Shown piece by piece: positions 15,222 through 51,286 of a stretch of 64,000 nt of DNA. Position 1 is the first letter of the stretch. Every line of letters starts with the position of its first letter. Source of the DNA: Dehalococcoidia bacterium (lineage in GTDB: Bacteria > Chloroflexota > Dehalococcoidia > DSTF01 > JACRBR01). Under the pieces are notes generated by a model, which was given only the letters and a program-made list of their open reading frames with translations, was not told the DNA's origin and searched no databases. The DNA lies in assembly GCA_021462855.1 (NCBI GenBank), contig JAJTXQ010000020.1, positions 124,001 to 188,000 on the forward strand, written 5' to 3'. A program made the position numbers and the translations under genes.

Positions 15222-16265
15222 ATGCCGCTTCCCTTCCAGCCGCCGATCGAGCCGATGCTCGCGCAGGCGCGCGATGCGATCCCCGATGGCGACGGCTGGA
15301 TCTACGAGCCGAAGTGGGACGGCTTCCGCGCCCTCATCTTCTACGACGGAAGCGAGGCGTACCTCCAGAGTCGCGACCTGAAGCCGCTCGCCCGCTACTT
15401 CCCGGAACTCAAGGATGGGATCGAGTCGGCGCTGCCCGGCCCGTGCGTGCTCGATGGCGAGGTCGTCATCGTCACGCGCGATGGCCTTGACTTCGGCGCG
15501 CTGCTGATGCGAATCCATCCGGCGGCGTCGCGCGTGCGCATGCTCGCCGCGGACACGCCGTCTTCGTTCGTCGCCTTCGACCTGCTCGCCGACGGCAACG
15601 ACGACCTCCGCACGACGCCGTTCGCCCAGCGCCGCGAGCGCCTCGATCGGCTCCTCGGCGACGTGGCGCCGCCCGTCTACCTCACGCCGGCGACGCGCGA
15701 CCGCGAGCTCGCCGCGACGTGGTTCGAGAAATTCGAGGGTGCCGGCCTCGACGGCGTGGTCGCCAAGCCGGCGGGCGACCCGTACCGCCCCGGCGTGCGG
15801 GCGATGGTCAAAGTGAAGCACCTGCGCAGCGCGGACTGCGTCATCGGCGGGTTCCGCTGGGGCAAGAACGCCGAGGGCGCCTCCGTCGGCTCGTTGCTCC
15901 TCGGCCTGTACGACGACGGCGGGGGGCTGCACCACGTCGGGCACACGTCGAGCTTCACCGCCGCGCAGCGGCGCGAGCTCGCCGAGATGCTGCGCCCGCT
16001 CGTCACCGACGACGCGCGCGACGGCTTCGGCGAAGGGCGCACGCCCGGCGGCCCGAGCCGCTGGAACGCCGGCCGCGACGTCAGCTGGGTGCGGGTGCGC
16101 CCGACGCTCGTGTGCGAGGTGTCGTTCGACCACCTGCAAGGCGACCGTTTCCGCCACGCGACGACGTTCCTCCGCTGGCGGCCCGACAAGCCGCCCGCGG
16201 CGTGCACGTACGACCAGCTCGAGACCACGCCGCCGTACGAGATCAAGGAGATTTTTCGGCGCTAA
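15222..16265 (+). CDS. ligC: ATP-dependent DNA ligase (LigC type)
   Basis: A 347-residue ligase consisting only of adenylation and OB-fold domains, the LigC layout. Motif I is EPKWDGFR with the AMP-accepting Lys31; motif III-like FVAFDLL, motif IV GLDGVVAKP and motif V MVKVKHLRSADCVI follow. The OB domain begins near 205 (VIGGFRWGKNAEG). It seals nicks with ATP, probably in a repair pathway. No Ku or LigD polymerase domain is nearby, so a role in end joining is not supported here. The last 4 bases overlap the convergent enoyl-CoA hydratase gene. Confidence 0.92.
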   Translation: MPLPFQPPIEPMLAQARDAIPDGDGWIYEPKWDGFRALIFYDGSEAYLQSRDLKPLARYFPELKDGIESALPGPCVLDGEVVIVTRDGLDFGALLMRIHPAASRVRMLAADTPSSFVAFDLLADGNDDLRTTPFAQRRERLDRLLGDVAPPVYLTPATRDRELAATWFEKFEGAGLDGVVAKPAGDPYRPGVRAMVKVKHLRSADCVIGGFRWGKNAEGASVGSLLLGLYDDGGGLHHVGHTSSFTAAQRRELAEMLRPLVTDDARDGFGEGRTPGGPSRWNAGRDVSWVRVRPTLVCEVSFDHLQGDRFRHATTFLRWRPDKPPAACTYDQLETTPPYEIKEIFRR

Positions 16266-17083
16266 CCCTCGCCGCGGAACGCGTCGATCGCGCCGCGAAT
16301 GCCCTTCTCGCGCACGAGCGCCCGCATCGCCTTCACCGCGTCGGACTCGTGCAGGATCGCGTCCCACTCGACACCCATCTTCACCGCCGTCGCGAACCCC
16401 ATCACATCCATTTGGCGGTTGATGGCGAGTTTCTTCACGCGCAGGATCTCGAGCGGCACGCGGGAGATTTCGCGCGCCACGCGCTCGACTTCGCGATCGA
16501 TGTCCGTCGCCGGCACGGCGAGCGTGGCCCAACCCCATGCGGCGGCCTCGCGCCCGTCGACTGCGCTGCCCGGGCGGAAGGACATGTACTTCGCCCGCCC
16601 CGGCCCGACAAGCCACGCCCAGATCGGGCTGATGAATCCTCCGCCGAGCGGCAATCCCGGCCACGCGAAGCGCGCGTCCTCCGCCGCGATGACGATGTCG
16701 CACATCGCGCAGAGCTGCGTCGCCCCGCCGATGCAATGCCCTTCCACCTGCGCGATGACCGGCTGCGGCATGTCGCGCACGAGCATCCAGCGCTTCAGCG
16801 TCTCTTCGAGCTGCGCGCGGTCGTGCAGGATGTCCGGCCGCGGCGGACGTGGCGCATCGGGATCGCGGCGGGGCGCCGGCGCAACATCGTAGCCCGCCGA
16901 GAACGACCCACCGGAGCCTCGGATAACGAGCACGCTCGTCTCATCACGCGCCGCGACTTCGCGCACCGCGTCCTCGAATTCGTGCAGCATCGTGGCGTCG
17001 AACGCGTTGCGCTTGTCCGGCCGATTGAACGTCAGCCGCGCGATCCTGCCGTCGTACGCCAGGTCGATCGTCGTCCGCGCCAT
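16262..17083 (-). CDS. enoyl-CoA hydratase/isomerase family protein
   Basis: A 273-residue crotonase-fold protein. The first oxyanion-hole segment is GGSFSAGYD and the second EGHCIGGATQLCAMCDIVIA. At the usual catalytic Glu positions the sequence reads WPGLPLGGGF, so a simple hydratase mechanism is uncertain, and it may be an isomerase, hydrolase or lyase. The gene lies 12 nt downstream of a CoA-transferase gene on the same strand and probably ends that operon (cyclase, CoA-transferase, CoA-transferase, hydratase). Confidence 0.88.
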   Translation of the reverse strand: MARTTIDLAYDGRIARLTFNRPDKRNAFDATMLHEFEDAVREVAARDETSVLVIRGSGGSFSAGYDVAPAPRRDPDAPRPPRPDILHDRAQLEETLKRWMLVRDMPQPVIAQVEGHCIGGATQLCAMCDIVIAAEDARFAWPGLPLGGGFISPIWAWLVGPGRAKYMSFRPGSAVDGREAAAWGWATLAVPATDIDREVERVAREISRVPLEILRVKKLAINRQMDVMGFATAVKMGVEWDAILHESDAVKAMRALVREKGIRGAIDAFRGEG

Positions 17084-17095
17084 TGCTGCCTCCTG

Positions 17096-18373
17096 CTATC
17101 CCGCCCACACGTCAACCAGCGGCTCCGCGCCGATCACGTGATCTCGTTCGAGCGCGGCGATCGCGTCGTCGCCAAGGCCCAGCAGGTCGCCGAGCACCTC
17201 CCGGTTGTGCTCGCCGAGCGTTGGCGCCGGACGCCGCGTCGCCAGCCTCGCGCCGTCCAGGACGTACGCCGACGACGGGTACTCGTGCGTGCCCGCGACG
17301 GGGGGCGTCACCTCTTCGAAGAAGCTGCGCGACCGCACGTGCGCATCTTCGAAGATCTGGCGGTTGAGGTACACCGCCCCGGCCGTCACGCCGGCGTCGG
17401 CGAGCTCGCGCTCGGCGGCAGCCTGTGTGCGCTCGCAAGCCCACACGGCGATTGCGGCGTCGATCTCGCCGGCGCGCGCATGGCGATTGTCCGCCGTCGC
17501 CAGCGCTGGGTCATCGCTCCACTCCGCGCGCCCGATGATGCGCGCGAGCGCGCGCCATTCGGCGTCGGTCTGCGCGCAGATGGCGATCCATGCGTCCTCG
17601 TCGGCCGTCTCGTAGCAGCCCTGGGGCGCATGCACGAGGTCGCGATTGCCTGTGCGCTCGAAGAGGCGCCCGTTCACGGACTGTTGGAGGACTGCGTCGG
17701 CCGCGAAGCCGGTCAGGGCCTCGATCTGCGCCACCTCGACGACCTGACCGGATCCCGTTGCCTCGCGCTCGATCAGCGCCATCATCACCGCGCCGGCCGC
17801 GTGCGTGCCCGAGATCGGGTCGCCGTACCAGAAGCCCGACTTCATCGGTGGCCCGCCTGCGTAGCCGGTGAGCCCGGTGATGCCGGACAGCATCTCCAGC
17901 GTCGAGCCGAAGCCGACGTAGTCGCGCTCGGGGCCGCTGGCGCCGATCGCGGGCATGCGCAGCAGCACGAGGCGCGGGTTCAGCGCCCGGAGCGCGTCGA
18001 ACCCGATGCCGAACCGCTCCATCTCGCCGGGCGCGTAGTTCTCCGCGACAACGTCGCTGATGGCCGCGAGCCGCCGGAACAGCTCGACGCCGCGCGCGTC
18101 CTTGAGGTTCAGCGTGATCCCGCGCTTGTTGCGGTTCGGCTTCAGGAACGTGTCTGCGCGCTCGTAGGGCCGCTCGGCTCCGCGTCGCGCGTAGGCGCGC
18201 CAGTCCTCCCGCCCGGTGGGACCGCGCGTCAGGTCGTACGCCTGAACGGCCTCGATCTTGATCACGTCGGCGCCGAGGTCGCCGAGCGCCTTGGTGCACC
18301 ATGGCCCCGCCCACGACGTCGTGAGGTCGAGGACCCGCAGGCCCTGCAGCGGCAACGCCGTTTGTTCAGGCAA
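17096..18373 (-). CDS. class III (CaiB/BaiF) CoA-transferase, subunit with catalytic Asp
   Basis: A 425-residue class III CoA-transferase moving CoA between carboxylates through an aspartyl-CoA anhydride/thioester. The N-terminal strand and CoA-binding segment is GLRVLDLTTSWAGPWCT...GADVIKIEA. The catalytic Asp is Asp185 in SGFWYGDPISG, aligned with the 'GD..GG' motif of the family. The start overlaps the stop of the upstream CoA-transferase gene by 8 bp, so the two are translationally coupled. The partner at 18366 lacks the Asp, which suggests the two make one heteromeric enzyme. Confidence 0.92.
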   Translation of the reverse strand: MPEQTALPLQGLRVLDLTTSWAGPWCTKALGDLGADVIKIEAVQAYDLTRGPTGREDWRAYARRGAERPYERADTFLKPNRNKRGITLNLKDARGVELFRRLAAISDVVAENYAPGEMERFGIGFDALRALNPRLVLLRMPAIGASGPERDYVGFGSTLEMLSGITGLTGYAGGPPMKSGFWYGDPISGTHAAGAVMMALIEREATGSGQVVEVAQIEALTGFAADAVLQQSVNGRLFERTGNRDLVHAPQGCYETADEDAWIAICAQTDAEWRALARIIGRAEWSDDPALATADNRHARAGEIDAAIAVWACERTQAAAERELADAGVTAGAVYLNRQIFEDAHVRSRSFFEEVTPPVAGTHEYPSSAYVLDGARLATRRPAPTLGEHNREVLGDLLGLGDDAIAALERDHVIGAEPLVDVWAG

Positions 18374-19547
18374 CGCCCGCCTCCGTCAGCGCGGCCACCT
18401 CGTCCGGCGACATGTCCAGCTCGCCGCCGAACACGGCACTGTTGTGCTCGCCGAGCGATGGCGCGGGCGACATGGCCCACGGCAACGCGTCGAGGCGAAA
18501 TGGCGCGCCGGGCGCCTTCATCATCCCGATCCCTGGCTGCTCCCATTGGTCGAAATATCCGCGCTCCGCGAAATGCCGCGACGCGAGGATATCGCTCGCG
18601 TCGCGCACGCTGGCGAAGGGCAGCGAGAGCGCCTGCGCGCGGTGGTAGATCTCCTCCTTATCGTGCGTGACTATCCACGGGAGCATCAGCGCGTCGACTT
18701 CGTCGCCGTACTTCACGCGGCCGCCGAGCGTGCGGAAGCGGTCGTCCGCCAGCCGCTCGTCCTCCATCAGCTCCGGGATGCGCCGCCACATCTTCCCCGA
18801 CCCGGGCACGATGACGCCGGCATAGCCGTCGGCGCACGGGTAGACGCCGTTCGCGACCGCGGCCACCGCGTCGCGTCCCACCTCGACACGCTCGAACGAC
18901 CACTTCATCAGCGTGCTGTGCAGGAACTGCAGCACGCACTCCAGCACGGCCACGTCGGCGTGATGCGCGCTGCCGCTGCGCCGCGCCCACAGCAGCGCCG
19001 CCATCGTCGCCTGCAGCACGTTTGCGCCGGCGATGAGTTGCGCCTGGTGTCCCCACATCTTCAGCGGCGGGCGGCCGCGCGAGCCGTTGCGCGCCATCAT
19101 GCCGCCAAGCGCCTGCATCGTGATCTCGCTCGCGCGTCGATCGCGGTACGGGCCGGTTTCGCCGAAGTTGGTGACGCTGACGCTGGCGATGCGCGGGTTC
19201 GCCGCAGCCAGTGCATCGTGCCCGATGCCGAACGCCGCCTTGCGCGGCGGCCGCACGCTCTCCACCACGACATCCGCGCGCGCGACGAGCCGGTGGAGTG
19301 CATCCCGCCCGCGCTGGCTCGAGAGGTCGAGCGTCACGCCACGCTTGCCGGCGTTGAGCCATGCGAAGTACGCGCTGTGCTGCGTGCCGTCCTTGACCGG
19401 TGGCAGGCGGCGGCTCCAGTCGCCCGCGCCGGGCCGCTCGACCTTGATGACGTCGGCGCCAAAGCCGGCGAGGATACGCGTGGCGTATGGGCCGGCCACG
19501 CCCGACGTGACGTCGACGACGCGCAGGCCGCGGATGCCGCCCGTCAT
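18366..19547 (-). CDS. class III CoA-transferase-like subunit lacking the catalytic Asp
   Basis: A 393-residue CaiB/BaiF-fold protein with a normal N-terminus (GLRVVDVTSGVAGPYATRIL, GADVIKVERP). In the active-site loop it reads MWGHQAQLIAG (165-175): there is no Asp anywhere between Pro161 and the following helix, so it cannot form the usual aspartyl-CoA intermediate. The start ATG overlaps the upstream cyclase stop (ATGA), and its own stop overlaps the start of the Asp-containing paralogue. This arrangement fits a non-catalytic partner subunit. The loop signature GxQAQxxAG is shared with the protein at 20668. Confidence 0.9.
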   Translation of the reverse strand: MTGGIRGLRVVDVTSGVAGPYATRILAGFGADVIKVERPGAGDWSRRLPPVKDGTQHSAYFAWLNAGKRGVTLDLSSQRGRDALHRLVARADVVVESVRPPRKAAFGIGHDALAAANPRIASVSVTNFGETGPYRDRRASEITMQALGGMMARNGSRGRPPLKMWGHQAQLIAGANVLQATMAALLWARRSGSAHHADVAVLECVLQFLHSTLMKWSFERVEVGRDAVAAVANGVYPCADGYAGVIVPGSGKMWRRIPELMEDERLADDRFRTLGGRVKYGDEVDALMLPWIVTHDKEEIYHRAQALSLPFASVRDASDILASRHFAERGYFDQWEQPGIGMMKAPGAPFRLDALPWAMSPAPSLGEHNSAVFGGELDMSPDEVAALTEAGVA

Positions 19548-20482
19548 TTCAGCGCGACGGCGTTCGCGGGCGAGGCGACGCCGCCCGGCAAGTACAGCGG
19601 CACCGCCGCGAAGAACGCATCCCAGCGCCCGTCGGCGCGGCAATCGGCCGCCAGCTCCTCGAACGTGAACAACTCGCCGATCGGGATGCCGAGCATCGGC
19701 AGGATGCGGCGATGGAGCGAACCGGCGGCCTTGTCGCCCGGAGCGACCTCGAGCGCCGGATTGTCGGCCGCAACGGCGGCGATGCGCAGGTTCCAGAGGT
19801 AGCGCGCGGTCTCTTCGCCGGCGTACAGCCCCGGGAAGGCGAACGTCTTCGCAAACTTCACGCGGCCCTCGGAGTCGGCGGCGAGGTACCCCTGCATCCA
19901 CCCGGTGCGGATGAGCAGCAGGTCGCCGGCGCGGATCTCGACGCCCTGCGCCAAGCGCGTCGCTTCGAGAAGCTCAACGGTGATCGCCAGCGATGTCAAC
20001 GGCTCGACCGGCGTTCCGCGCTCCGCAAGGTGCCCGGCGACGTCGAGCAGCACGGCACGGCCGACGAGCCCGTGTTCGACAAACCGCTCGATACCCAGCC
20101 GGTCGCCGCCCTCTCCCGTCCGTTCCGCCTGCGTGCCGCCGTAGTAGCCGAATTCGCGCGCGGCGACGTGCCGGAAGCCATCCCACTGCGACGACACCTG
20201 CAGGTAGAACTGGTCGACGTAGTCGTCCTGCTCGTTCCGCCCCAGCGGCACGATGTGGTGCTCGTACTTCTTGCGGCGGAAGAGCGGCGGGTCGGGCAGG
20301 TTGAGGGGAAGCGACAGGTTAAACACGCGCCCGCGCTTGATGAGCGCGCTCGCCGCGACCCGCGCCGCGCCATCGAGGTGGTTCAGTGTGCCGCGTTCGT
20401 CCCCCTCGCCGAACACGCCCCACGAATTGCGCATGCCAAGCTCCGTGTTGAGCGGCAGGTCATCGTAGTCCGGCACCTTCAC
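19544..20482 (-). CDS. cyclase/kynurenine-formamidase-like family hydrolase
   Basis: A 312-residue member of the 'cyclase' family of metal-dependent amidohydrolases, which cleave amides or lactone-like bonds. The N-terminal part has NSWGVFGEGDERGTLNHLD, common in the longer cyclase subgroup. The central metal site region reads SSQWDGFRHVAAREFGYYGG (the family's HxGTHxDxPxH element is altered to W-D-G-x-x-H). GDLLLIRTGWMQGYL and DNPALEVAP follow. I chose the GTG at 20480-20482, preceded by GGAGGAG; an ATG at 20515 would add 11 residues. It heads the minus-strand operon with two CoA-transferases and a hydratase. Confidence 0.82.
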   Translation of the reverse strand: MKVPDYDDLPLNTELGMRNSWGVFGEGDERGTLNHLDGAARVAASALIKRGRVFNLSLPLNLPDPPLFRRKKYEHHIVPLGRNEQDDYVDQFYLQVSSQWDGFRHVAAREFGYYGGTQAERTGEGGDRLGIERFVEHGLVGRAVLLDVAGHLAERGTPVEPLTSLAITVELLEATRLAQGVEIRAGDLLLIRTGWMQGYLAADSEGRVKFAKTFAFPGLYAGEETARYLWNLRIAAVAADNPALEVAPGDKAAGSLHRRILPMLGIPIGELFTFEELAADCRADGRWDAFFAAVPLYLPGGVASPANAVALK

Positions 20483-20667
20483 GGGGTTCTCCTCCTCGCG
20501 CTCGCCCAGTCTCATCAGCGGCGCCGCGACGGTCTATCCGGCATCGTGATGAGCAGACTGTAGGGCCACACCCGACAGTCCCCGCATCGCTGCCCGATTG
20601 ACCGCACGCGCCGCGGGCATCGACACTTGCCGCAGCCAAACGACGTCCGTTTCTGGTGCGCGTGAGC

Positions 20668-21795
20668 ATGTCGTTAGACCTTCGCGTCGTTGAGATAAGC
20701 CTGTCCGCCGCCGGCGCCTTCGCCGGCCGCTTCTTCGCCGACGCTGGCGCCGACGTCATGCTCGTCGAACCGCCGGCCGGCCACGCACTGCGGCACGAAG
20801 GCCCGTTTCGCGACGACCGCTTCGACATCGAGACGTCGGCCGCGCATCTGCACATGAACGCCGGCAAGCGCTCGCTCGTCGCCGACATCGCCGCCGACGC
20901 GAGTGATATCGCCCGGCTGATCGCGACGTCGGATGTGCTGGTCACCGACGCACGCGCATCCGTGCTCGACCCGCTCGGGCTGTCCTGGCCGGCGCTCAGC
21001 GCCGCGAACCCCGCCCTGCTCATGACGCGCGTATCGCCGTTCGGCGACACCGGCCCGTATCGCGCGTATGACGCGACGAACATCATCAGCATGGCGCTCG
21101 GCGGGCAGCTCAAGATCACTGGCGATTCTGGCCGCGCGCCGCTGTGCAACTTCGGCGCGCAGGCGCAGTACCAGGCGGGCATCGCCGCGTTCGCCGGCAC
21201 GCTCGCCAACCTCCTCCTGCGCGATGCCACGGGCGAGGGCGAATACCTCGACCTCTCGGTGCAGGATGTCGTCGCGAACAACCTCGAAGGCCGCAGCCTC
21301 ACCTTCAACCTTGGAGTGATGGCCGAGCGCGCCGGCCTGAACGTCTCCGCCGTGTATGGCGTCTACCCTTGCGCCGACGGCTGGGTCTTCATCTCTGCGT
21401 TCGCGCCCGCGCTCTGGGAACAGCTGAAGATCGCCGCCCGCATCCCCGAGCTCGACGACCAGCGCTTCTCGACCCAGGCTGGCCGGCTCGACAACAACGA
21501 TGAGCTCGAGGCGATCATTATGTCGTGGACGCTGTCGTCCACGAGTGATGAGCTGCGCGTCCTCGCGCAGCAGGGCTACCCCCTCACCGTCAGCGAGACG
21601 CCCGAGCGGCTGCTCGCGTCGGAGCAGTGGCGCTCGCGCGGCGTCGCGCGCACGGTGGCGCATCCGCATGCGGGTGACATCGCGCTGCTCGCGCCGGCGT
21701 GGGTCGGGGGCGACGCGGCCCCGGTCCGCCCCGCGCCGCTCCTCGGCGAACACACCGCCGCCATCCTCGGTCCCCTCTCGCGGGCGGTGCGCTGA
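20668..21795 (+). CDS. class III CoA-transferase-like subunit lacking the catalytic Asp
   Basis: A 375-residue CaiB/BaiF-fold protein. The N-terminus is normal for the family (LRVVEISLSAAGAFAGRFFA, GADVMLVEPP). The active-site loop reads NFGAQAQYQAG (161-171) and contains no Asp up to the following helix, so the catalytic nucleophile is lost. It shares the GxQAQxxAG loop with the Asp-less protein encoded at 18366-19547 on the other strand. The stop TGA overlaps the ATG of the next, Asp-containing CoA-transferase by one base. An in-frame GTG at 20656 is an alternative start. Confidence 0.9.
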   Translation: MSLDLRVVEISLSAAGAFAGRFFADAGADVMLVEPPAGHALRHEGPFRDDRFDIETSAAHLHMNAGKRSLVADIAADASDIARLIATSDVLVTDARASVLDPLGLSWPALSAANPALLMTRVSPFGDTGPYRAYDATNIISMALGGQLKITGDSGRAPLCNFGAQAQYQAGIAAFAGTLANLLLRDATGEGEYLDLSVQDVVANNLEGRSLTFNLGVMAERAGLNVSAVYGVYPCADGWVFISAFAPALWEQLKIAARIPELDDQRFSTQAGRLDNNDELEAIIMSWTLSSTSDELRVLAQQGYPLTVSETPERLLASEQWRSRGVARTVAHPHAGDIALLAPAWVGGDAAPVRPAPLLGEHTAAILGPLSRAVR

Positions 21796-23078
21796 TGGAC
21801 TGGCGCCGCGACCGGTTGCCGTTGCGCGGCCTGCGTGTCATCGACTGGTCGGTGTACTGGGCCGGCCCGTACCTGAGCCTCATGCTCCATGATCTCGGCG
21901 CGGAGGTCATCAAGATCGAGTCGCCTTCGAGCTGGGACCCGATGCGCACGGTGATCGATGTCAACCGCGGCGTGCGCGGCACGGCCCGCCCGATGACGCC
22001 GCAGGAGCGCTCGAATGTCAACCAGCACTTCAACGAGTGGAATCGCGGTAAGCGGAGCCTGGCGGTCGAGCTGCGCGAGCCACGCGGGCGCCACATCCTC
22101 CTCGACCTGGTCGCGAACGCCGACGTGTTCATCGAGAACCACCGTCCGCACGTGAAGGACAAGCTGCACATCGCCTGGGGCGACCTGCGGCCGCTGCGCC
22201 CGTCGCTCGTCTACGTCTCGTTGTCCGGATACGGGCAGACGCTGCCCGACCGCAACGCGATGGCGCTGGGCAGCCCCGTCGAGGTCGCCAGCGGGCTGTT
22301 CTCGCTCAACGGCTATCTCAACGAGCCAACGCCAGCGAAGACCGGCTTCTCATACGGCGACCCGGTGGGCGCACTAACGGCGCTCTCGGCGACGTTGCTC
22401 GCGATCCGCGAGGCGCGGCGCACGGGCGAGGGCCGCTACCTCGATGTGGCGCTGCGTGATGCGCTGGCGTTCGGCATCGGCGCCGCCTTCATCGACTGGT
22501 CGATGAACCAGCGCGAGCGCCCGCGCCGGGGCAACCGGCACGAGGTGTATGCGCCGCAGGGCGTGTACCGCGCGCTCGGCGAGGACGAATGGGTGGCGAT
22601 CAGCGTGCGTGACGACGCCGATTGGCGCGCGTTCGGCGAGGCGCTCGGCTCCCCGGCGTGGCATTCCGGCGCGGCCTTCGCGACCGCAGAAGGCCGCCGG
22701 AGCGGCCACGACGAGATCGACGCGCAGATCGAGGCGTGGACGTCGACGCGCTGCGCGCGCGACATCGAGATCGCGCTGCAGGAGGCGGGCGTGCCGGCCG
22801 CCGCGGTGCTCAACTACCGGCAGTTGCGCCGCGACCCGCAGCTCAACGCGCGCGGCATGTTCCAGGAGATACCGCACCCGGCGTTCGGACTCGAGGTGCG
22901 CAGCGCGTCGCTCTTCGAACGCGGCAACTTCCCGCAGCCCATCGACCGGCACGCGCCGATGTTCGGCCAGCACAACGACGACGTGCTCGCCGGCCTGCCT
23001 GGTATGGATGACGCATCGATCGCCGCGCTCCGGCGCGATGGCATCATCGGAGAGGAGATCCTCGCGACCGGCGACTGA
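21795..23078 (+). CDS. class III CoA-transferase, subunit with catalytic Asp
   Basis: A 427-residue CaiB/BaiF CoA-transferase. It begins GLRVIDWSVYWAGPYLSLML and has GAEVIKIESP; the catalytic Asp is Asp189 in TGFSYGDPVGAL. The start codon overlaps the stop of the Asp-less paralogue (TGATG), implying coupled translation and a heteromer. It is followed after 15 nt by an acyl-CoA dehydrogenase and then a MaoC hydratase, so the CoA ester it makes is likely oxidised and hydrated in turn. Confidence 0.92.
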   Translation: MDWRRDRLPLRGLRVIDWSVYWAGPYLSLMLHDLGAEVIKIESPSSWDPMRTVIDVNRGVRGTARPMTPQERSNVNQHFNEWNRGKRSLAVELREPRGRHILLDLVANADVFIENHRPHVKDKLHIAWGDLRPLRPSLVYVSLSGYGQTLPDRNAMALGSPVEVASGLFSLNGYLNEPTPAKTGFSYGDPVGALTALSATLLAIREARRTGEGRYLDVALRDALAFGIGAAFIDWSMNQRERPRRGNRHEVYAPQGVYRALGEDEWVAISVRDDADWRAFGEALGSPAWHSGAAFATAEGRRSGHDEIDAQIEAWTSTRCARDIEIALQEAGVPAAAVLNYRQLRRDPQLNARGMFQEIPHPAFGLEVRSASLFERGNFPQPIDRHAPMFGQHNDDVLAGLPGMDDASIAALRRDGIIGEEILATGD

Positions 23079-23093
23079 GCCGCGCGAGCACGC

Positions 23094-24257
23094 ATGGACT
23101 TCCGCGATTCAGCCGAAGAAGCCGCATTCCGCGCCACCGTGCGCGGTGTCATCGAGCGAGAGCTGCCGCCCGACCTCCGCGGCGGCAGCTCCGACGAGGA
23201 CGAGACCGGGCGGTTCAATGCCTGGCTCGACAAGCTGCGCGAACGGAGCTGGATCGCGCCGGCGTGGCCGCGCGAGTACGGCGGCGGCGGCGCGTCGATC
23301 GTCGAGCAGTTCATCCTTAACGAGGAGATGGCGCGTCCCCGCGCGCCGCGGCCGTCGGGCGTTGCGATCGGCTTCGTCGGCCCGACGATCATCACGTACG
23401 GCACGGATGAACAGAAGGCGCAGTTCCTTCCCGGCATCCTGAACGGCGACCAGTGGTGCCAGGGGTTCTCCGAGCCCGGCGCCGGATCCGACCTGGCGTC
23501 GCTCGCCACGCGGGCCGAGCGGGACGGCGACGAGTACATCGTCAACGGCCAGAAGATCTGGACGTCGCTCGCGCACCGTGCGCAGTGGATGATCATGCTC
23601 GCGCGCACCGACCGTGAAGCGCCGAAGCATCGCGGCATCTCCTGCTTCATCCTCGACATGCGCACCCCCGGGATCACGATCCGGCCGCTCGAGAACATGG
23701 CGGGCACGCACGAGTTCAACGAGGTGTTCTTCGACAACGTGCGCGTGCCGGCATCGATGCGGATCGGCGAGGAGAACCGCGGGTGGTACGTCGGCATGAC
23801 AACGCTCGAGTTCGAGCGTTCGCACATCGGCGCGGCGGTCGGGCTCGACCGGAACGTTTCGGATCTCGTCGCGACGCTGCGCGATGGCGCGTGCGCGAAC
23901 GGGCGCGCCACCGCCGCGCGGAACGAGGTCATCGACCGCACCATCGAGATCAATGTCGCGAAGCTGATGGCGTACAACGTCTTCAGCCTGCAGAAGAGCC
24001 GCCGCCCCATCGAGCACGAGGCATCGACGACGAAGCTCTACGTGACGGAGCTGACGCAGCGCGTGTTCCGCACCGGCGTGAAGCTGCTCGGCGCGTATGG
24101 CCTCCTCCGCGCCGACGACCTGAAGCGCTTGGGCCAGCCGCTGCGCTACGTGCCGGGGCAGTACCTGTACTCCGTGCAGTCGACGATCGCCGGCGGCACC
24201 AGCGAGATCGTGCGGGGCGTCGTCGCGACGCGCTCGCTCGGCCTCCCCCGCAGCTAG
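23094..24257 (+). CDS. acyl-CoA dehydrogenase (FadE-like)
   Basis: A 387-residue FAD enzyme for alpha,beta-desaturation of an acyl-CoA. It has RSWIAPAWPREYGGGGAS, the flavin-site motif WCQGFSEPGAGSDLAS, VNGQKIWTSLAHRAQWM, and the C-terminal STIAGGTSEIVRGVVATRS. It is closely similar in layout to the enzymes at 11377 and 32454, with AGGTSE in place of the usual YEGTSE. Three bases separate it from the MaoC gene, and it follows the CoA-transferase pair, so the four or five genes form one operon. Confidence 0.93.
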   Translation: MDFRDSAEEAAFRATVRGVIERELPPDLRGGSSDEDETGRFNAWLDKLRERSWIAPAWPREYGGGGASIVEQFILNEEMARPRAPRPSGVAIGFVGPTIITYGTDEQKAQFLPGILNGDQWCQGFSEPGAGSDLASLATRAERDGDEYIVNGQKIWTSLAHRAQWMIMLARTDREAPKHRGISCFILDMRTPGITIRPLENMAGTHEFNEVFFDNVRVPASMRIGEENRGWYVGMTTLEFERSHIGAAVGLDRNVSDLVATLRDGACANGRATAARNEVIDRTIEINVAKLMAYNVFSLQKSRRPIEHEASTTKLYVTELTQRVFRTGVKLLGAYGLLRADDLKRLGQPLRYVPGQYLYSVQSTIAGGTSEIVRGVVATRSLGLPRS

Positions 24258-24259
24258 CG

Positions 24260-24730
24260 ATGTCGTCCGGCGCCGGCGACCGCATGTACTTCGATGATAT
24301 CGCCGTCGGCGACGAGTGGACGAGTCCCGCCCGCACGATCACGGAAACCGATGCGATGATGTGGTCGTACATGACAGGCGACTGGACATCGCTCCACGTG
24401 GACGAGGAGTACGCGAAGACGCATTCCCCGTTCGGCACCCGCATCCCGCCGGGGATGATGACCGCCGCCATCAGCCACGGCCTGCTCGCCCAGCTGCGGC
24501 TGTTCCACGAGACCGCGCTGGCGTTCCTCGAGCTGACGATCCGCTACCGCGATGTCGTGCGCGTCGGCGATACGGTGCATGCGCGGCTCCGCATCAGCGA
24601 AAAGAAGCTCACGTCGAAGGGCGACCGCGGGCTCGTGCGGCTCGAACAACGGGTGCTGAACCAGCATGGCGGCGTCGTGCAGGACGGCGAATGGCTGATC
24701 CTCGTCGCCTGCCGGCCCACCGCGTCCTGA
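24260..24730 (+). CDS. MaoC-like (R)-specific enoyl-CoA hydratase
   Basis: A 156-residue single-hotdog MaoC protein that adds water to a trans-2-enoyl-CoA. The hydratase motif with catalytic Asp and His is MTGDWTSLHVDEEYA (about 36-50), followed by FGTRIPPGMMTAAISHGLL, which has the family's G-x-x-x-P-G. It lies directly after the acyl-CoA dehydrogenase gene (two bases between stop and start), as expected for consecutive beta-oxidation steps. No ribosome-binding site of its own is obvious; expression probably depends on coupling. Confidence 0.9.
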   Translation: MSSGAGDRMYFDDIAVGDEWTSPARTITETDAMMWSYMTGDWTSLHVDEEYAKTHSPFGTRIPPGMMTAAISHGLLAQLRLFHETALAFLELTIRYRDVVRVGDTVHARLRISEKKLTSKGDRGLVRLEQRVLNQHGGVVQDGEWLILVACRPTAS

Positions 24731-27238: not shown

Positions 27239-28321
27239 ATGCCCGACGAGAGCGCGCTGCAGTTCCTCCGCGACGACGTGCCGGATGACGTCCGGCGCAC
27301 GATCCTCGCGCTCACCGACGAGACGGAGCCCGAACCGGCGCCGCTCGAAGTGAACGAGTACCTCATCCGCCACTGGTGCGAGGCGCTGGAGGACGGCAAC
27401 CCGCTCTACCTCGATGCGGCGTACGCGCGCGCGAACGCGCACCCGGGTGTCGTCGCGCCGCCGGCGTCGCTGCTGACGACGTTCCTCCTGCCGCTGCGCT
27501 GGCCGTGGCCGCCCGATGGCCGCGAGCCCCGCCGGTTCATCCATTACGACCTGAAGGAACTGCTCGACCTGCCCGTCGGCATCGTCACGGACATCGATGT
27601 CACGTACCACGCGGCCGTGCACGCCGGCGACCGGCTGAACACCACGCAGCGGCTCGTGTCCATCTCGCCGTGGAAACGCACGCGTGTCGGCGAGGGGCAC
27701 TTCTGGACCATCGACCGCACGTACCGCAACCAGCGCGCCGAAGTCGTCGCGCGCGAGCGGATGACCATCTTCTCCTACGGAGGCGGCAGCGCGCAGCAGG
27801 AGGCGGCAGGCGCCGGCGGCTGGAGCGCGGCCGTCGAGGAGATGATCGGCGGCGATGGCCGCTACCTGCCGCCAGAGCCAGCTTCCGTGTACTGGGATGA
27901 CGTGCGGGTCGGCGACGCGTTGCCGCCGCTGTCGATGCCGATCACGTTCACCCGCGCCGTGTACCTCGCATCGGCGACGCGCGACTTCTCGCCGCAGCAC
28001 TCGAACCGCGACTACGCGCAACAGCGCTCGAACACGCGCGACGTGTTCGTCAACACGCCGTTCAACATGGGCATGGTCAGCCGGCTCCTCACCGACTGGG
28101 CGGGCCCACGCAGCACCGTGCGCCGCCTGAAGCTGGCGATGCGCGGCAACGTCTGCGCGGGCGACGTGATGACGCTCACCGGCGCCATCACGGCCAAGTA
28201 CGTCGAGGACGGAGAACCGCGCGTCGATGCCGACATCATGATCGCGACGGCCGACGGCCCTGCCACGCCGTGCTCGGCCACGCTCGCTCTGCCGGCGCGC
28301 GCCGGCGCCGTGCCCGCATGA
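27239..28321 (+). CDS. double-hotdog MaoC/FAS1-like hydratase
   Basis: A 360-residue protein with two hotdog domains. The N-terminal half (about 20-190) is of the FAS1-like dehydratase type (VNEYLIRHWCEALEDGNPLY, HPGVVAPPASLLTT) and lacks the catalytic Asp/His pair. The C-terminal half (about 215-355) holds it in ATRDFSPQHSNRDYAQ. One active and one inactive hotdog in a single chain is typical of hydratases for bulky CoA esters, such as the ChsH1-ChsH2 type in sterol side-chain degradation. The stop overlaps the next start (ATGA), so it is co-translated with the fused CoA-transferase. Confidence 0.87.
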   Translation: MPDESALQFLRDDVPDDVRRTILALTDETEPEPAPLEVNEYLIRHWCEALEDGNPLYLDAAYARANAHPGVVAPPASLLTTFLLPLRWPWPPDGREPRRFIHYDLKELLDLPVGIVTDIDVTYHAAVHAGDRLNTTQRLVSISPWKRTRVGEGHFWTIDRTYRNQRAEVVARERMTIFSYGGGSAQQEAAGAGGWSAAVEEMIGGDGRYLPPEPASVYWDDVRVGDALPPLSMPITFTRAVYLASATRDFSPQHSNRDYAQQRSNTRDVFVNTPFNMGMVSRLLTDWAGPRSTVRRLKLAMRGNVCAGDVMTLTGAITAKYVEDGEPRVDADIMIATADGPATPCSATLALPARAGAVPA

Positions 28322-30834
28322 GCGGCGCCTGCGACGGCCTCCGCGTCATCGACTTCAGCACATGGATGGCGGGCCCGCTCGCCACGATGGTGCTCGCCGA
28401 CAACGGCGCCGACGTCATCAAGGTGGAATCGCCCGCGGGCGACCCGGCGCGCGCGCTCCCCGCGTTCCAGACGTGGAACCGCGGCAAGCGCGCCGCGACG
28501 ATTGACCTCAAGACGCCGCACGGCCGCGCGTCTGCGCTCGACCTCGCACGCACGGCCGATGTGGTCGTCACGAGCTTCCGGCCCGGCGTGGCCGAGCGCC
28601 TCGGCATCGGCTACGACGATATCCGCGTGGTCAATCCGCGGGCCGTCTACGCCGCGATCAGCGGCTACGGCGAGGCCGGCGCGCGCCGCGACCTTGCCGG
28701 GTATGACGCGCTCGTTACCGCGCGCTCCGGCCGCATGATGATGTTCGAGGGCGTCGCGGAGCGCGCCGGCCCGGCGTATCCCGCGCTCCCCTGCGCCTCG
28801 TACTCGGCAGCCATGCTCACGGCGCAGGGCGTCCTCGCGGCGCTGCACCGCCGCCGCGTGACGGGCGCCGGCGACCGCGTCGCCGTCTCGCTGCTCGCCG
28901 CGCTCATGCCGTTCGACTTGATCATGTGGATCGGCTGGCAGCTCCGTGGCCAGGACCTCGAGACCGAGGGCGTCTCCGCGCCCATGCTGCTCCAGAAGCT
29001 GATGGGCGAGCGGAAGATGATCGAGAAGGCGCCGCCGAAGGAAGGCGCGTACGACCCGACACAGCTCCATCGCCCGAAGGTGCGCGTTCCGCGGCCAAAC
29101 TACCTGACCGCCGTCACGAAGGACGGCGTCTGGATCCAGTTCGCCAACACCATGGACCATCTCTGCGTCGCGCAGATGACCGCGCTCGACCTGCTCGACC
29201 TCTACGGAGAGGAGCGCTTCGCCAAGCTGCCGGCGATCTTCACCGAGGACGACGCAGACGACCTCTGGGGCATTGTGCTCGAACGAGTGCGGACGAAGAC
29301 GTGGGAGGAGTGGTCCACGATCTTCGCGCGGCACGAGGATCTCGCGGTCGAGCGCGTCCGCGGGCCGCTCGACTCGCTGCGCCACCGTCAGATCGCGCAC
29401 AACGGCCAGGCCGTCGCGGTCCCAGGCTTCGACGGCAAGCCCACGCTGCAGCCTGGACCGATCGCGCTCCTTTCGGCGAACGCGCCAACGATCGGTCGCC
29501 CGGCGCCGTGCCCCGGCGAGCACACCGACGCCGTGCTCGCGGAACAACGCCAGGTGCCAGACAGCGGACCTCCAGCCGTAGCCGATGCGGGCGCGCCGCT
29601 CGCCGGCATCACCATCCTCGACTTCTCGGCCTGGATCGCCGCGCCGCTGTCGACGACCATGCTCGCGAACCTCGGCGCGCGCGTGATCAAGATCGAGCAG
29701 GTTGGTGGCGACATGAGCCGCTACTCGACAGGCGGCCTCCTCGCGTTCCCGATGACGCAAGGCAAGGAGAGCATCGCCCTCAACCTCAAGTCGCCGGAAG
29801 GGCTGGCGATCGCGCGCAAGCTCATCGAACGCTCCGACATACTCGTGCACAACTACCGGGCGGGCGTTGCCGCGCGCATCGGCATCGACTACGCGACATG
29901 CCGCGCGCTGAACCCGCGCATCATCTACCTCGACGCCGCGTCCTACGGCGCCGACGGCCCCGACTGCCGCAAGCCGGCGTTCTTCGCCGTCGCGGCCGCG
30001 CTCGGCGGCAACCAGGCGCGGCAGGTTGGCGCCGGACACCCGCGCCCCGGCGTCGAACACGGCACGCTCGATGAACTCAAGACCGAGGCCTGGCGCCTGC
30101 TGAAGGCCGCCGAGGGCAACGCCGACCCCATCGCCGCCCTTGGCGCCGCCACGGCGCTGCTGCTCGCGCTCCACGCGCGCGACGCGTCGGGCGAGGGCCA
30201 GTCGCTGGTCACGACGATGATCGGCTCGACGCTCTACGCCAACTCGGACGAGACGATCGACTACGATGGCCGCCCGCCGTCGCCGCAGGTCGACGAGCAA
30301 CTACTGGGCCTCGGCCCGGCGTACCGGCTCTACGAGACGCGCGACGGATGGCTGTTCGTTTGCTGCATGAGACGCGCCGAGTGGGACGCGTTGTGCGACG
30401 GGATCGGCCGCGCCGACCTCGCGCCGCGCTGGGTCGACGTGTGCCGGGCGCCCGCGTCCGACGCGGTGGCGTCGGAGCTGGAATCTGTGTTCCGCACGCG
30501 CTCCGCCACGGAATGGGAACGCGACCTCGCGCCGCGCGGCGCGCCGGTCGCCGCCGTCGAGACCCGCGACCCCGGCCGCTTCAACATGGAAGACCCGGAT
30601 ATGAGGGCGCAGGGTCACGCGGTGCAGGCGCACTCGCCGGTGCACGGCGCGTACTGGCGGCACGGCGCCCTCTACCGATTCGGGAGCGGCGCGCCGCAGG
30701 CGTTCGGCGCGTGGGAGCCGCTCGGCGGTCACTCGCGCGCCATCCTCGCGCAGCTCGGCTACGCGCCCGATGCCATCGATGCGCTGGTGGACGCGGGCAT
30801 CGTCGAGGCATGGGCGCCGGAGGCGAACGAATGA
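28318..30834 (+). CDS. fused double class III CoA-transferase (Asp-less N-domain, Asp-containing C-domain)
   Basis: An 838-residue protein made of two complete CaiB/BaiF units, about 5-400 and 428-835. The first starts GLRVIDFSTWMAGPLATMVL, the second GITILDFSAWIAAPLSTTML. In the N-terminal unit the active-site loop is ALPCASYSAAM, with Ser161 where the nucleophilic Asp should be. In the C-terminal unit the loop is EGNADPIAALG with Asp603 in place. The chain is thus a natural fusion of the Asp-less/Asp-containing pairs found elsewhere in the window. The gene overlaps both neighbours by ATGA and sits in the middle of the igr-like operon, so it probably makes the CoA ester that the operon degrades. 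Confidence 0.92.
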   Translation: MSGACDGLRVIDFSTWMAGPLATMVLADNGADVIKVESPAGDPARALPAFQTWNRGKRAATIDLKTPHGRASALDLARTADVVVTSFRPGVAERLGIGYDDIRVVNPRAVYAAISGYGEAGARRDLAGYDALVTARSGRMMMFEGVAERAGPAYPALPCASYSAAMLTAQGVLAALHRRRVTGAGDRVAVSLLAALMPFDLIMWIGWQLRGQDLETEGVSAPMLLQKLMGERKMIEKAPPKEGAYDPTQLHRPKVRVPRPNYLTAVTKDGVWIQFANTMDHLCVAQMTALDLLDLYGEERFAKLPAIFTEDDADDLWGIVLERVRTKTWEEWSTIFARHEDLAVERVRGPLDSLRHRQIAHNGQAVAVPGFDGKPTLQPGPIALLSANAPTIGRPAPCPGEHTDAVLAEQRQVPDSGPPAVADAGAPLAGITILDFSAWIAAPLSTTMLANLGARVIKIEQVGGDMSRYSTGGLLAFPMTQGKESIALNLKSPEGLAIARKLIERSDILVHNYRAGVAARIGIDYATCRALNPRIIYLDAASYGADGPDCRKPAFFAVAAALGGNQARQVGAGHPRPGVEHGTLDELKTEAWRLLKAAEGNADPIAALGAATALLLALHARDASGEGQSLVTTMIGSTLYANSDETIDYDGRPPSPQVDEQLLGLGPAYRLYETRDGWLFVCCMRRAEWDALCDGIGRADLAPRWVDVCRAPASDAVASELESVFRTRSATEWERDLAPRGAPVAAVETRDPGRFNMEDPDMRAQGHAVQAHSPVHGAYWRHGALYRFGSGAPQAFGAWEPLGGHSRAILAQLGYAPDAIDALVDAGIVEAWAPEANE

Positions 30835-41118: not shown

Positions 41119-42333
41119 GTGGCCGCAGGCGCGCTCGACGGTATCCGCGTCATCGACATGGGCGAGCTGATCGCCGCGCCGTTCTGCGCCCGCCTCTTCG
41201 CCGACTACGGCGCCGACGTCGTCAAGGTCGAGCCGCGCGGCCGCGGTGACCGCTCGCGCACATGGGGCCCGTTCCCCGGCGACGCCCGCGACGCTGAACG
41301 TAGCGGCCTGTTTTTCTATCTCAACACCAACAAGCGCGGCGTCACGCTCGATGCCACGACGCCCGATGGGCGCGACCTGCTGCTCGCGCTCCTCCGCGAC
41401 GCCGACGCGTTCATCCACGGCATGCGCCCGCGCGAGCTTCGCGCGCTCGGTCTCGACTTCGACGCGCTGGCGGCCATCAACCCGCGACTCGTCATGATCT
41501 CGATCACGCCGTTCGGCCAGACCGGGCCGTACAGCGACTGGAACGCCTACGACATCAACGCCTTCCACCTCACGGCCTCCGGCATGCGCTACCTCGGTCG
41601 GCCGGGCGAGGCGCCGCTCGAGCCCGGCACGTTCATCGCCGACTTCTACGGCGCGTACGCCGGAGCCGCGTGGGGGCTCGCCGCGATTATCGGCCGCGAC
41701 GCGATCGGCGGCGGCCAGCACGTCGACGTGTCGACCGCCGAGGTGATCGCCGCGCTGTTCACGGGCGCGCAGAACATCGGCGGGTACGCACAGGACGGCG
41801 TGTACGAGACGCGCAGCGGCGTCGGCATGCGCCTCGGCGCGCCGGCGACGATCTTTCCGTGCAAGGACGGCTACGTGTGGATGCTGGCGCTCGAACCCGG
41901 GCAGTGGAAAGGCCTCGCGCGCGCGATGGGCGACCCCGACTGGATGCAGCTTGAACAGTTCCTCGACATGTACAACCGCGCCCAGAACGTCGATGCGATG
42001 AACCCGCTGATCGCCGAATGGACGGTCCAGCACACCAAGCAGGAGATCATGGACCTGTGCCAGTCCAACGGCTGCCCGACGACCGCGATCTACACCGTCG
42101 ACGAGGTGGCGAATCACCCGCACCTCGCAGAGCGCGGGTTCATGCGGGACATCGCGCATGCGTCGCTCGGCGACGTGCGCACCACCGGCGCGCCCGTGCG
42201 GCTGCCGGGAAGCCCCGGCGGTCCGGCGCGGCCGGCGCCGCTCCTCGGTGAGCACAACGCCGAAGTCTTCGGCGCGCTGCCCGGCCGCGACGGCGACGCC
42301 GTCCGGCGTCTGCAGCAAGCGGAGGTGATCTGA
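41119..42333 (+). CDS. class III (CaiB/BaiF) CoA-transferase
   Basis: A 404-residue enzyme, first of three consecutive paralogues. It begins GIRVIDMGELIAAPFCARLF with GADVVKVEPR; the catalytic Asp175 is in GTFIADFYGAYAG, and the GGGQHVDVSTAEV motif follows. I chose the GTG at 41119 because GAGG lies 5 nt upstream; a GTG at 41113 is also in frame. The next CoA-transferase gene starts 1 nt after its stop. All three in this run keep the Asp, unlike the paired sets. Confidence 0.92.
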   Translation: MAAGALDGIRVIDMGELIAAPFCARLFADYGADVVKVEPRGRGDRSRTWGPFPGDARDAERSGLFFYLNTNKRGVTLDATTPDGRDLLLALLRDADAFIHGMRPRELRALGLDFDALAAINPRLVMISITPFGQTGPYSDWNAYDINAFHLTASGMRYLGRPGEAPLEPGTFIADFYGAYAGAAWGLAAIIGRDAIGGGQHVDVSTAEVIAALFTGAQNIGGYAQDGVYETRSGVGMRLGAPATIFPCKDGYVWMLALEPGQWKGLARAMGDPDWMQLEQFLDMYNRAQNVDAMNPLIAEWTVQHTKQEIMDLCQSNGCPTTAIYTVDEVANHPHLAERGFMRDIAHASLGDVRTTGAPVRLPGSPGGPARPAPLLGEHNAEVFGALPGRDGDAVRRLQQAEVI

Positions 42334-42334
42334 C

Positions 42335-43555
42335 ATGGCACGCGCGCTCCCGCTCGCAGGCGTCCGCGTGTGCAACTTCGGCTCGGGCTGGCTCGGGCCT
42401 GTGTTCGGCCAGACACTCGCCTTCCTCGGCGCCGAGGTCTACAAGGTCGAGTCAAGCGCGCGCGTCGACATCAACCGGCGCCTGCCGCCGTTCGGCGGCG
42501 GCGTGCCCGGCCCCGACCGCAGCCTCTCCAACCACGCCTGCTGGGCGGGCAACGGCAGCGTCACGCTGAACCTCAAGCACCCCGCGGCGCGCGACCTCGC
42601 GCTTCGCCTGGTCGCCGTGTCCGACATCGCCGGCGAGAACTTCGGGCCGGGCGTGATGGACTCGCTCGACCTGGGTTACGACGCGCTGCGCGGCGCGCGC
42701 CGGGACATCATCATGATCTCGATGCCGGCGGCGGGGCTCACCGGACCGCTAAAGGGCGTGCGCACGTACGGCATGAGCCTGAGCAGCATCACCGGTCTCG
42801 ACAGCATGACAGGCTACGCTGGAGGCGGGCCGGTGCCGTTCGAGAACGCGTTCGCCGACCCGCTCGGCGGTGTCATCGGCGCGTTCGGCACGCTCGTCGC
42901 GCTTCACCACCGCAACCGCACCGGCGAAGGCCAGCACATCGACTACTCGCAGCAGGAAGGCGTGATGCAGATGGTTGGGCCGGCGTTCATGGACTATTTC
43001 ATGAACGGCCGCGTCGCCGCGCCGATGGGCAATCGCCACCCGGTGAGCGCGGGCGCGCCCCACGGCGTCTTCCGCTGCGCTGGCGACGACCGCTGGATCA
43101 GCATCGCCGTGCTCACCGACGACGAGTGGCGCGCGCTCGCCGAAGCGATCGGCGCGCCCGCATGGACGCGAGCCGCGGAGTTTGCAACCGCCCCCGACCG
43201 CCTCGCCAATATCGATGCGTTGCACGAGCGCATCGCCGCGTGGACGTCCGGCCAAGACGCAGCCGCGCTCGCTGGCCAACTGCAGGAGCGCGGCATCGCA
43301 GCCGCGCCTGTGCTGAACATCCCCGACCTGCTCAGCGACCCGCACTACCGCGAGCGCGGCACGTTCATCTCTGTGCATCACCCGCTCGGCTTCGACGAGA
43401 CGATCTACGGCGGATACGTGAAGATGAGCCGCACGGAGCCCAACATCCGCACCGGACCGCTCATCGGCCAGGACAACGACCACGTCTTCCGCGATCTGCT
43501 CGGCATCGACGGCGCGGAGTACGAGCGCCTCGTCGCCGAGCAGGTGATCTTCTAG
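42335..43555 (+). CDS. class III (CaiB/BaiF) CoA-transferase
   Basis: A 406-residue paralogue in the three-gene run. The N-terminus VRVCNFGSGWLGPVFGQTLA and GAEVYKVESS are followed by catalytic Asp175 in ENAFADPLGGVIGAFG and GEGQHIDYSQQE. Spacing to the previous gene is one base and to the next nine bases, so the run is one operon. The acceptor acid cannot be inferred from sequence. Confidence 0.92.
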   Translation: MARALPLAGVRVCNFGSGWLGPVFGQTLAFLGAEVYKVESSARVDINRRLPPFGGGVPGPDRSLSNHACWAGNGSVTLNLKHPAARDLALRLVAVSDIAGENFGPGVMDSLDLGYDALRGARRDIIMISMPAAGLTGPLKGVRTYGMSLSSITGLDSMTGYAGGGPVPFENAFADPLGGVIGAFGTLVALHHRNRTGEGQHIDYSQQEGVMQMVGPAFMDYFMNGRVAAPMGNRHPVSAGAPHGVFRCAGDDRWISIAVLTDDEWRALAEAIGAPAWTRAAEFATAPDRLANIDALHERIAAWTSGQDAAALAGQLQERGIAAAPVLNIPDLLSDPHYRERGTFISVHHPLGFDETIYGGYVKMSRTEPNIRTGPLIGQDNDHVFRDLLGIDGAEYERLVAEQVIF

Positions 43556-43564
43556 CATGCGCTG

Positions 43565-51258: not shown

Positions 51259-51286
51259 ATCACTCTCGCTGCGCCGATCGCCGTTG

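Follow-up and report, generated by a model that had tools for sequence, protein, structure and literature searches.

Class III coenzyme A (CoA)-transferases of the homodimeric Frc family (Frc, CaiB, Mct, and SUGCT) are encoded by single genes and carry the catalytic aspartate (Asp) in both halves, as is described for Mct in passages of PMC9813914 and PMC9196870. A two-gene enzyme of this class is BbsEF of the toluene pathway (Protein Data Bank (PDB) entries 9FN0 and 9FOL): the Asp that forms the CoA adduct belongs to BbsF (the title of 9FOL names the D178-CoA adduct of BbsEF), and BbsE is without it, having Tyr at this position and Gln two residues before it (position -2). In the present study, we analyzed 64,000 nucleotides of a Dehalococcoidia bacterium (contig JAJTXQ010000020.1; this whole stretch is referred to as the window), in which two divergent gene sets, one on the minus strand and one on the plus strand, contain the gene pairs E1-F1 and E2-F2, respectively. 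The pairs have the fold, PF02515, the expected interlocked dimer, and, in the F proteins, the Asp chemistry in common with the Frc family, whereas Asp was lost in the other half of each pair, the E protein. The two pairs very probably represent BbsEF-type heteromers within the class III (Frc-family) CoA-transferases, with E1 and E2 as the non-catalytic partner subunits. This reading is carried by intact genes, the loss of Asp, gene overlaps, near-obligate pairing, the positions in the clades of BbsE and BbsF, co-varying trees, purifying selection in the E2 lineage, and natural fusions.

DddD is a two-domain fusion of class III CoA-transferase domains. In having two such domains per chain it resembles the four fused tandem class III CoA-transferases of the host genome, and differs from E1-F1 and E2-F2, which are separate genes; the fusion found in the window (28300-30804) is from a different Asp-less lineage. 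Passages of PMC5395668 name DddD as homologous to CaiB/BaiF, and record that CaiB/BaiF genes have expanded in SAR202 Chloroflexi. The bbs operon includes a dehydrogenase and a hydratase, according to a passage of PMC10818641.

Pairing of Asp-less and Asp-bearing domains

Full-length matches with PF02515 were obtained for all four proteins: 234.2-351.3 bits (cut-off, 23.3). In the alignment column of the catalytic Asp, this residue was present in F1 and F2 and absent from E1 and E2, in which Gln was found; therefore, E1 and E2 are class III homologues rather than catalytic members. An earlier note on this DNA had described Asp-less proteins at 18366 and 20668, on opposite strands and with the loops GHQAQLIAG and GAQAQYQAG, and both genes were confirmed to be intact. 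The best sequence matches in the PDB were BbsE (9fn0_A) for E1, and BbsF (9fn0_B) for F1 and F2: 5.5e-50, 2.8e-72, and 2.6e-51, respectively; E2 matched 4ed9_A (3.1e-37), and then BbsE (9fn0_A; 2.9e-34). The Asp residues of F1 and F2 aligned with D178 of BbsF (position 171 of the alignment row plus seven residues missing from the row). Within each pair, the two genes overlapped: by eight bases between the end of E1 and the start of F1, and as TGATG at the stop of E2 and the start of F2.

The host genome (3.02 Mb; 97.47% complete) contained 31 PF02515 domains (32 places, two of which were pieces of one domain): 21 with Asp and ten without, the two of the earlier note included. All ten Asp-less domains were located directly upstream of, or fused N-terminally to, an Asp domain, and 20 of the 31 domains sit in these ten Asp-less/Asp pairs. 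A genome scan was performed using an alignment of E1, E2, F1, and F2 as the query (two conserved stretches, excluding the loop), and 80 of the 515 confirmed loci were retained. Among these 80 loci, an Asp domain was located directly downstream of 55 out of 68 Asp-less domains, only upstream of three, and not within 350 bases of ten.

A census of nearly all PF02515 domains was conducted in eight genomes: the host, three relatives, and four others reached via matched loci, that is, picked because a locus there had matched. Domains shorter than 330 residues and five fragments or broken copies (G040:C2:46217-47383, G040:C1:1067716, and G041:C142, C40, and C579) were excluded; two rows in which Asp was misaligned by one column were scored as Asp, one of which (L214:1845) was doubtful. 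Among the 153 intact domains, 37 were Asp-less, 34 of which adjoined a same-strand Asp domain. The 116 Asp domains consisted of 34 adjoining an Asp-less domain, five adjoining a further Asp domain but not an Asp-less one, and 77 single domains (adjoining an Asp domain, 34/37 versus 5/116: Fisher p, 3e-25). One genome (G042; 12 domains) contained neither an Asp-less domain nor a pair. "Asp-less first" was rejected as a universal order: in G018, five out of 11 Asp-less domains come after their Asp partner. The reversed-order subgroup of this genome (L176, L178, L179, and L180), with the Asp half first, includes several Asp-less halves with a GGGN[AG][WY]H loop.

Phylogeny, selection, and the Gln-containing loop

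A tree of 387 domain rows was constructed after removing the loop columns (domains shorter than 345 residues and identical copies were dropped). One branch (SH-like support, 0.979) set off 144 rows, 132 Asp-less (including BbsE of 9FN0) and 12 with Asp (referred to as the E-clade); the remaining rows consisted of ten Asp-less and 233 Asp domains, including BbsF. In a 64-row tree under a mixture model, also excluding the loop columns, E1 and E2 fell with BbsE in an E clade of 30 rows, and F1 and F2 with BbsF in an F clade containing 14 out of the 16 F rows. The two clades were sisters, each of these branches having an SH-aLRT support of 99; because of this relationship, an old duplication probably gave rise to E and F, followed by the loss of Asp in E, with exceptions. 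Since 12 E-clade members keep Asp, all of them the first gene or domain of a pair, the loss of Asp is not the defining trait of the subunit. The first (GTFIADFYG) of three tandem class III CoA-transferase genes at 41122-44737 (+) of the window, all with Asp, was located inside the E-clade, as was an Asp-keeping two-gene relative in a Polyangiaceae record (L058).

The ten Asp-less domains outside the E-clade include those of the fusion at 28300-30804 and at 50053-51279. The latter (VGPMYT) and its Asp-bearing neighbor (GSGDAM), at 48807-51279 (-) of the window, were mutually sister (support, 99), and this Asp-less half is therefore apparently of independent origin; a separate origin is also favored for the Asp-less half of the fusion. 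When E, the Asp-bearing E members, and the second Asp-less group were constrained together, corresponding to a single origin of all Asp-less domains, the likelihood decreased by 50 with a soft p value of 0.011 in the approximately unbiased test (p-AU), the constraint groups having been defined after seeing a tree; therefore, at least two Asp-less origins are favored. That the Asp-less members of the E-clade form one group with no exceptions was likewise rejected (p-AU, 0.001, similarly soft). A variant of the single-origin test omitting the Asp-bearing E rows gave 4e-10, but confounds both questions.

The earlier note had proposed testing whether the loop always accompanies an Asp-containing neighbor. 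Among the 143 E-clade rows other than BbsE, this neighbor was located directly downstream in 116, directly upstream in six, and within 1.5 kb in five, while six rows were cut off and ten had none; "always" is thus nearly true. Tree distances of E and F were correlated in 116 pairs (r = 0.735; the largest value in 2000 permutations, 0.142), and also after thinning to 89 pairs (r = 0.67). If E1 and E2 were homodimeric or independent, their adjacency to a catalytic paralogue would reflect tandem duplication only; an old duplication would indeed yield sister E and F clades, and the genes at 41122-44737 provide an example of three Asp-bearing CoA-transferases in tandem. However, the event is old, pairing has been kept across phyla with co-varying trees, and natural E-F fusions were found in several lineages, making this explanation very unlikely.

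Orthologues of E2-F2 were found in G013, G014, and G016, three genomes of the same taxonomic order as the host, with 59-60% identity and the loop GSQAEYQAG; they are separate genes in G013 and G016, and a single 838-codon frame in G014 (L127). The ratio of nonsynonymous to synonymous substitutions (dN/dS) among these orthologues was 0.09-0.12 for E2, as low as that for F2 (0.11; one comparison). In comparisons with the window, E of the orthologues had ratios of 0.27-0.36 and F had ratios of 0.24-0.29; these are less certain because the synonymous distances were 0.8-1.1. No internal stop was found in the 62 E1-like places listed across 40 genomes (host included), and an in-frame TAG was detected in two out of 99 listed E2-like places, that of L126 being the gene's own stop at the F junction. 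Asp is lost from these genes, and broken copies are present in relatives (e.g., G008:C3:224087-225879 and G018:C5:6638-7752), as would be expected of decaying CoA-transferase duplicates; however, the frames of E1 and E2 are intact, the E2 orthologues are constrained to the same degree as their partner, and the E-clade has conserved columns of its own. The dN/dS values refute decay in the E2 lineage; it appears to be unlikely for E1, and as a general explanation of the Asp-less genes it is extremely improbable. The suggestion in the earlier note of selection rather than decay is thus well founded. Broken CoA-transferase copies were noted in two relatives (L172, 4364-6252; L177, 670-1847); decay of such genes does occur.

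The loops of E1 and E2 share six out of nine residues, which is modest taken alone at an overall identity of 34%. At the family level, Gln at position -2 was found in 66 out of 143 E-clade rows (67 out of 144 including BbsE) but in none of the 241 remaining rows; for the full pattern G-x-Q-x-[cat]-x-x-x-G, the counts were 35 and none, respectively. The loop occurs beyond the host genome. On these aligned sequences, the likeness of the two loops exceeds chance at the family level, and the loop common to both operons reflects shared descent. Other frequent E-clade residues were Gly at -4 (107/143), Gly at +4 (105/143), and Ala at +3 (86/143). On the other hand, the Asp column itself was variable, with 16 residue types and an entropy of 3.3 bits: Tyr, 26; Glu, 25; Gln, 25; Leu, 19; Asp, 12; and others. 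Some E-clade members keep Asp within the same loop (GHQAD, GFQAD, and GYQAD), and only four out of the ten Asp-less domains of the host genome have the G-x-Q loop: E1, E2, GSQAE (C28), and GNQGY (C22).

A new role arising from the replacement loop had been suggested in the earlier note, and E1 and E2 might have their own chemistry, as an acyl-CoA lyase, isomerase, or hydrolase, with catalysis by either the Gln of the loop or the residue in the Asp column. Gln at -2 is frequent in the E-clade and absent elsewhere, and class III relatives include racemases and a CoA-transferase/lyase (DddD, named as homologous in a passage of PMC5395668). However, Gln at -2 occurs in under half of the E-clade, a new catalyst at the Asp column is disfavored because this position is not conserved, and the Asp-less proteins seldom occur without an Asp partner; we consider this explanation to be highly improbable. 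The loop as a replacement nucleophile was not favored, the column being variable and Asp being kept in 12 members. Gln at -2 is most likely a lineage mark, present also where Asp is kept, and not a new catalytic residue. A new role in the sense of the earlier note was not supported; the likely role of E1 and E2 is the known one of a non-catalytic half, with BbsEF as a precedent.

Proposed mechanism and its implications

In the BbsEF-type reading, E and F would fold as two interlocked rings, with each composite active site combining the large domain of one subunit with the small domain of its partner. Asp is present only in the site on the large domain of F, where it would carry CoA as an aspartyl-CoA thioester. 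The site of E itself would be dead, and E would supply its small domain to F and act as a fixed, asymmetric partner; we infer such a live F site and dead E site in E:F dimers from homology with BbsEF and from a structural model. A natural E-F fusion from a Candidatus Lambdaproteobacteria record (L083; loop GQQAYIQAG) was predicted as one unit, using an alignment of 12 fusion proteins as the input, with a predicted template modeling score (pTM) of 0.91 and a mean predicted local distance difference test score (pLDDT) of 85.4. The best Foldseek match of this model was the D chain of 9fol (BbsF), and both halves matched class III CoA-transferases.

Each pair probably transfers CoA from an acyl-CoA (e.g., succinyl-CoA) to a carboxylic acid, and the product may then be oxidized by the neighboring acyl-CoA dehydrogenases and hydratases; an acyl-CoA dehydrogenase, a MaoC hydratase, and an enoyl-CoA hydratase are encoded beside the pairs. 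Benzylsuccinate synthase belongs to the pyruvate formate-lyase (PFL)-like glycyl radical enzyme family (PF02901). Since no match to PF02901 was found in the host genome (97.47% complete), benzylsuccinate is unlikely as a substrate.

The dead site of E may still bind CoA or an acid and regulate F as an allosteric pseudo-site. Much of the family scaffold is retained in the large domain of E (e.g., columns R45, K66, and D90; numbering of the 10uh row), but two polar columns conserved in the family drift in E (Asn, 84% outside versus 25% in E; Arg, 71% outside versus Thr, 69% in E), which may mean weaker CoA binding, and regulation of this type is unlikely. In a broader form, the E-clade would be an ancient and extensive family of pseudo-subunits whose dead site serves as a second functional ligand site. 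CoA or the acceptor acid would be held by the G-x-Q loop, through which the two halves are coupled, making these enzymes two-site machines; members keeping Asp in this loop would then be ancestors with two active sites, or revertants. We regard this proposal as speculative and unlikely.

Several points weigh against E1 and E2 as BbsE-type partners. The top PDB match of E2 (4ed9) is a CaiB/BaiF protein solved alone, not BbsE, and the structural model is of the L083 fusion from another phylum, not of the complex of the window proteins. Unlike BbsE, E1 and E2 lie outside the BbsE subclade proper, to which the C22 pair of the host (L010) is nearer. Twelve E-clade members retain Asp, and ten of the 143 rows had no Asp neighbor in the DNA examined. 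No close orthologue of E1 was found among the 40 genomes searched (best, 41%), and purifying selection was measured for the E2 lineage only. Shared species history could also partly explain the co-variation of E and F.

E1-F1 and E2-F2 most likely represent a widespread arrangement of a known kind, not a new enzyme. The principle of a silent partner is already known from BbsEF, and we make no claim that the general E-clade is unreported; it is the generality of the Asp-less/Asp pairing that is instructive. Gene callers label both halves "CoA transferase," and the Asp column and the neighbor together distinguish the catalytic from the non-catalytic half. If the model is true, either half expressed alone would fail, which matters for anyone assaying such enzymes. 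Orthologous pairs occurring as two genes in one genome and as a single fused gene in another provide ready material on why a dimer gives up one active site.

Gene arrangement in the window

The positions of the genes and motifs are listed in Table 1. E1 likely starts with the ATG at 19545-19547, in an ATGA overlap with the stop codon of the PF04199 gene; the open reading frame of E1 is extendable upstream to 19901. An alternative start of E2 is the GTG at 20656. In the E2-F2 gene run, a further acyl-CoA dehydrogenase gene follows that of the MaoC-type dehydratase.

Table 1. Genes and motifs of the two gene sets in the window (aa, amino acids)
Feature	Position	Strand	Remarks
E1, Asp-less class III CoA-transferase homologue, 393 aa	18366-19547	-	PF02515, 312.8 bits; E-clade with BbsE
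F1, Asp-bearing class III CoA-transferase (YGDPISG), proposed catalytic subunit of pair 1	17096-18373	-	PDB match, BbsF
E2, Asp-less class III CoA-transferase homologue, 375 aa from ATG	20668-21795	+	PF02515, 234.2 bits; E-clade
F2, Asp-bearing class III CoA-transferase (YGDPVGA), proposed catalytic subunit of pair 2	21795-23078	+	PDB match, BbsF
E1 loop GHQAQLIAG, residues 166-174	19026-19052	-	Second Gln at the catalytic Asp column
E2 loop GAQAQYQAG, residues 163-171 (counted from ATG at 20668)	21154-21180	+	Second Gln at the catalytic Asp column
F1 catalytic segment YGDPISG	17807-17827	-	Nucleophilic Asp by homology with BbsF D178
F2 catalytic segment YGDPVGA	22353-22373	+	Asp column in the alignment
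PF04199 (putative cyclase) gene	19544-20515	-	Same operon as pair 1
Enoyl-CoA hydratase/isomerase (PF00378), downstream of F1	16262-17083	-	
Acyl-CoA dehydrogenase, downstream of F2	23094-24257	+	
MaoC-like dehydratase, E2-F2 gene run	24254-24730	+	
Natural fusion of Asp-less (CASY) and Asp-bearing (NADP) domains, E2-F2 gene run	28300-30804	+	Asp-less half outside the E-clade

An ATP-dependent DNA ligase gene (15222-16265, +) is located between catabolic operons of the window. In plasmid 3 of Variovorax sp. SRS16 (L247), two adjacent CoA-transferase genes are accompanied by those of an enoyl-CoA hydratase, a thiolase, and a Zn-ribbon oligonucleotide/oligosaccharide-binding (OB)-fold protein, a layout similar to that of the bbs operon.

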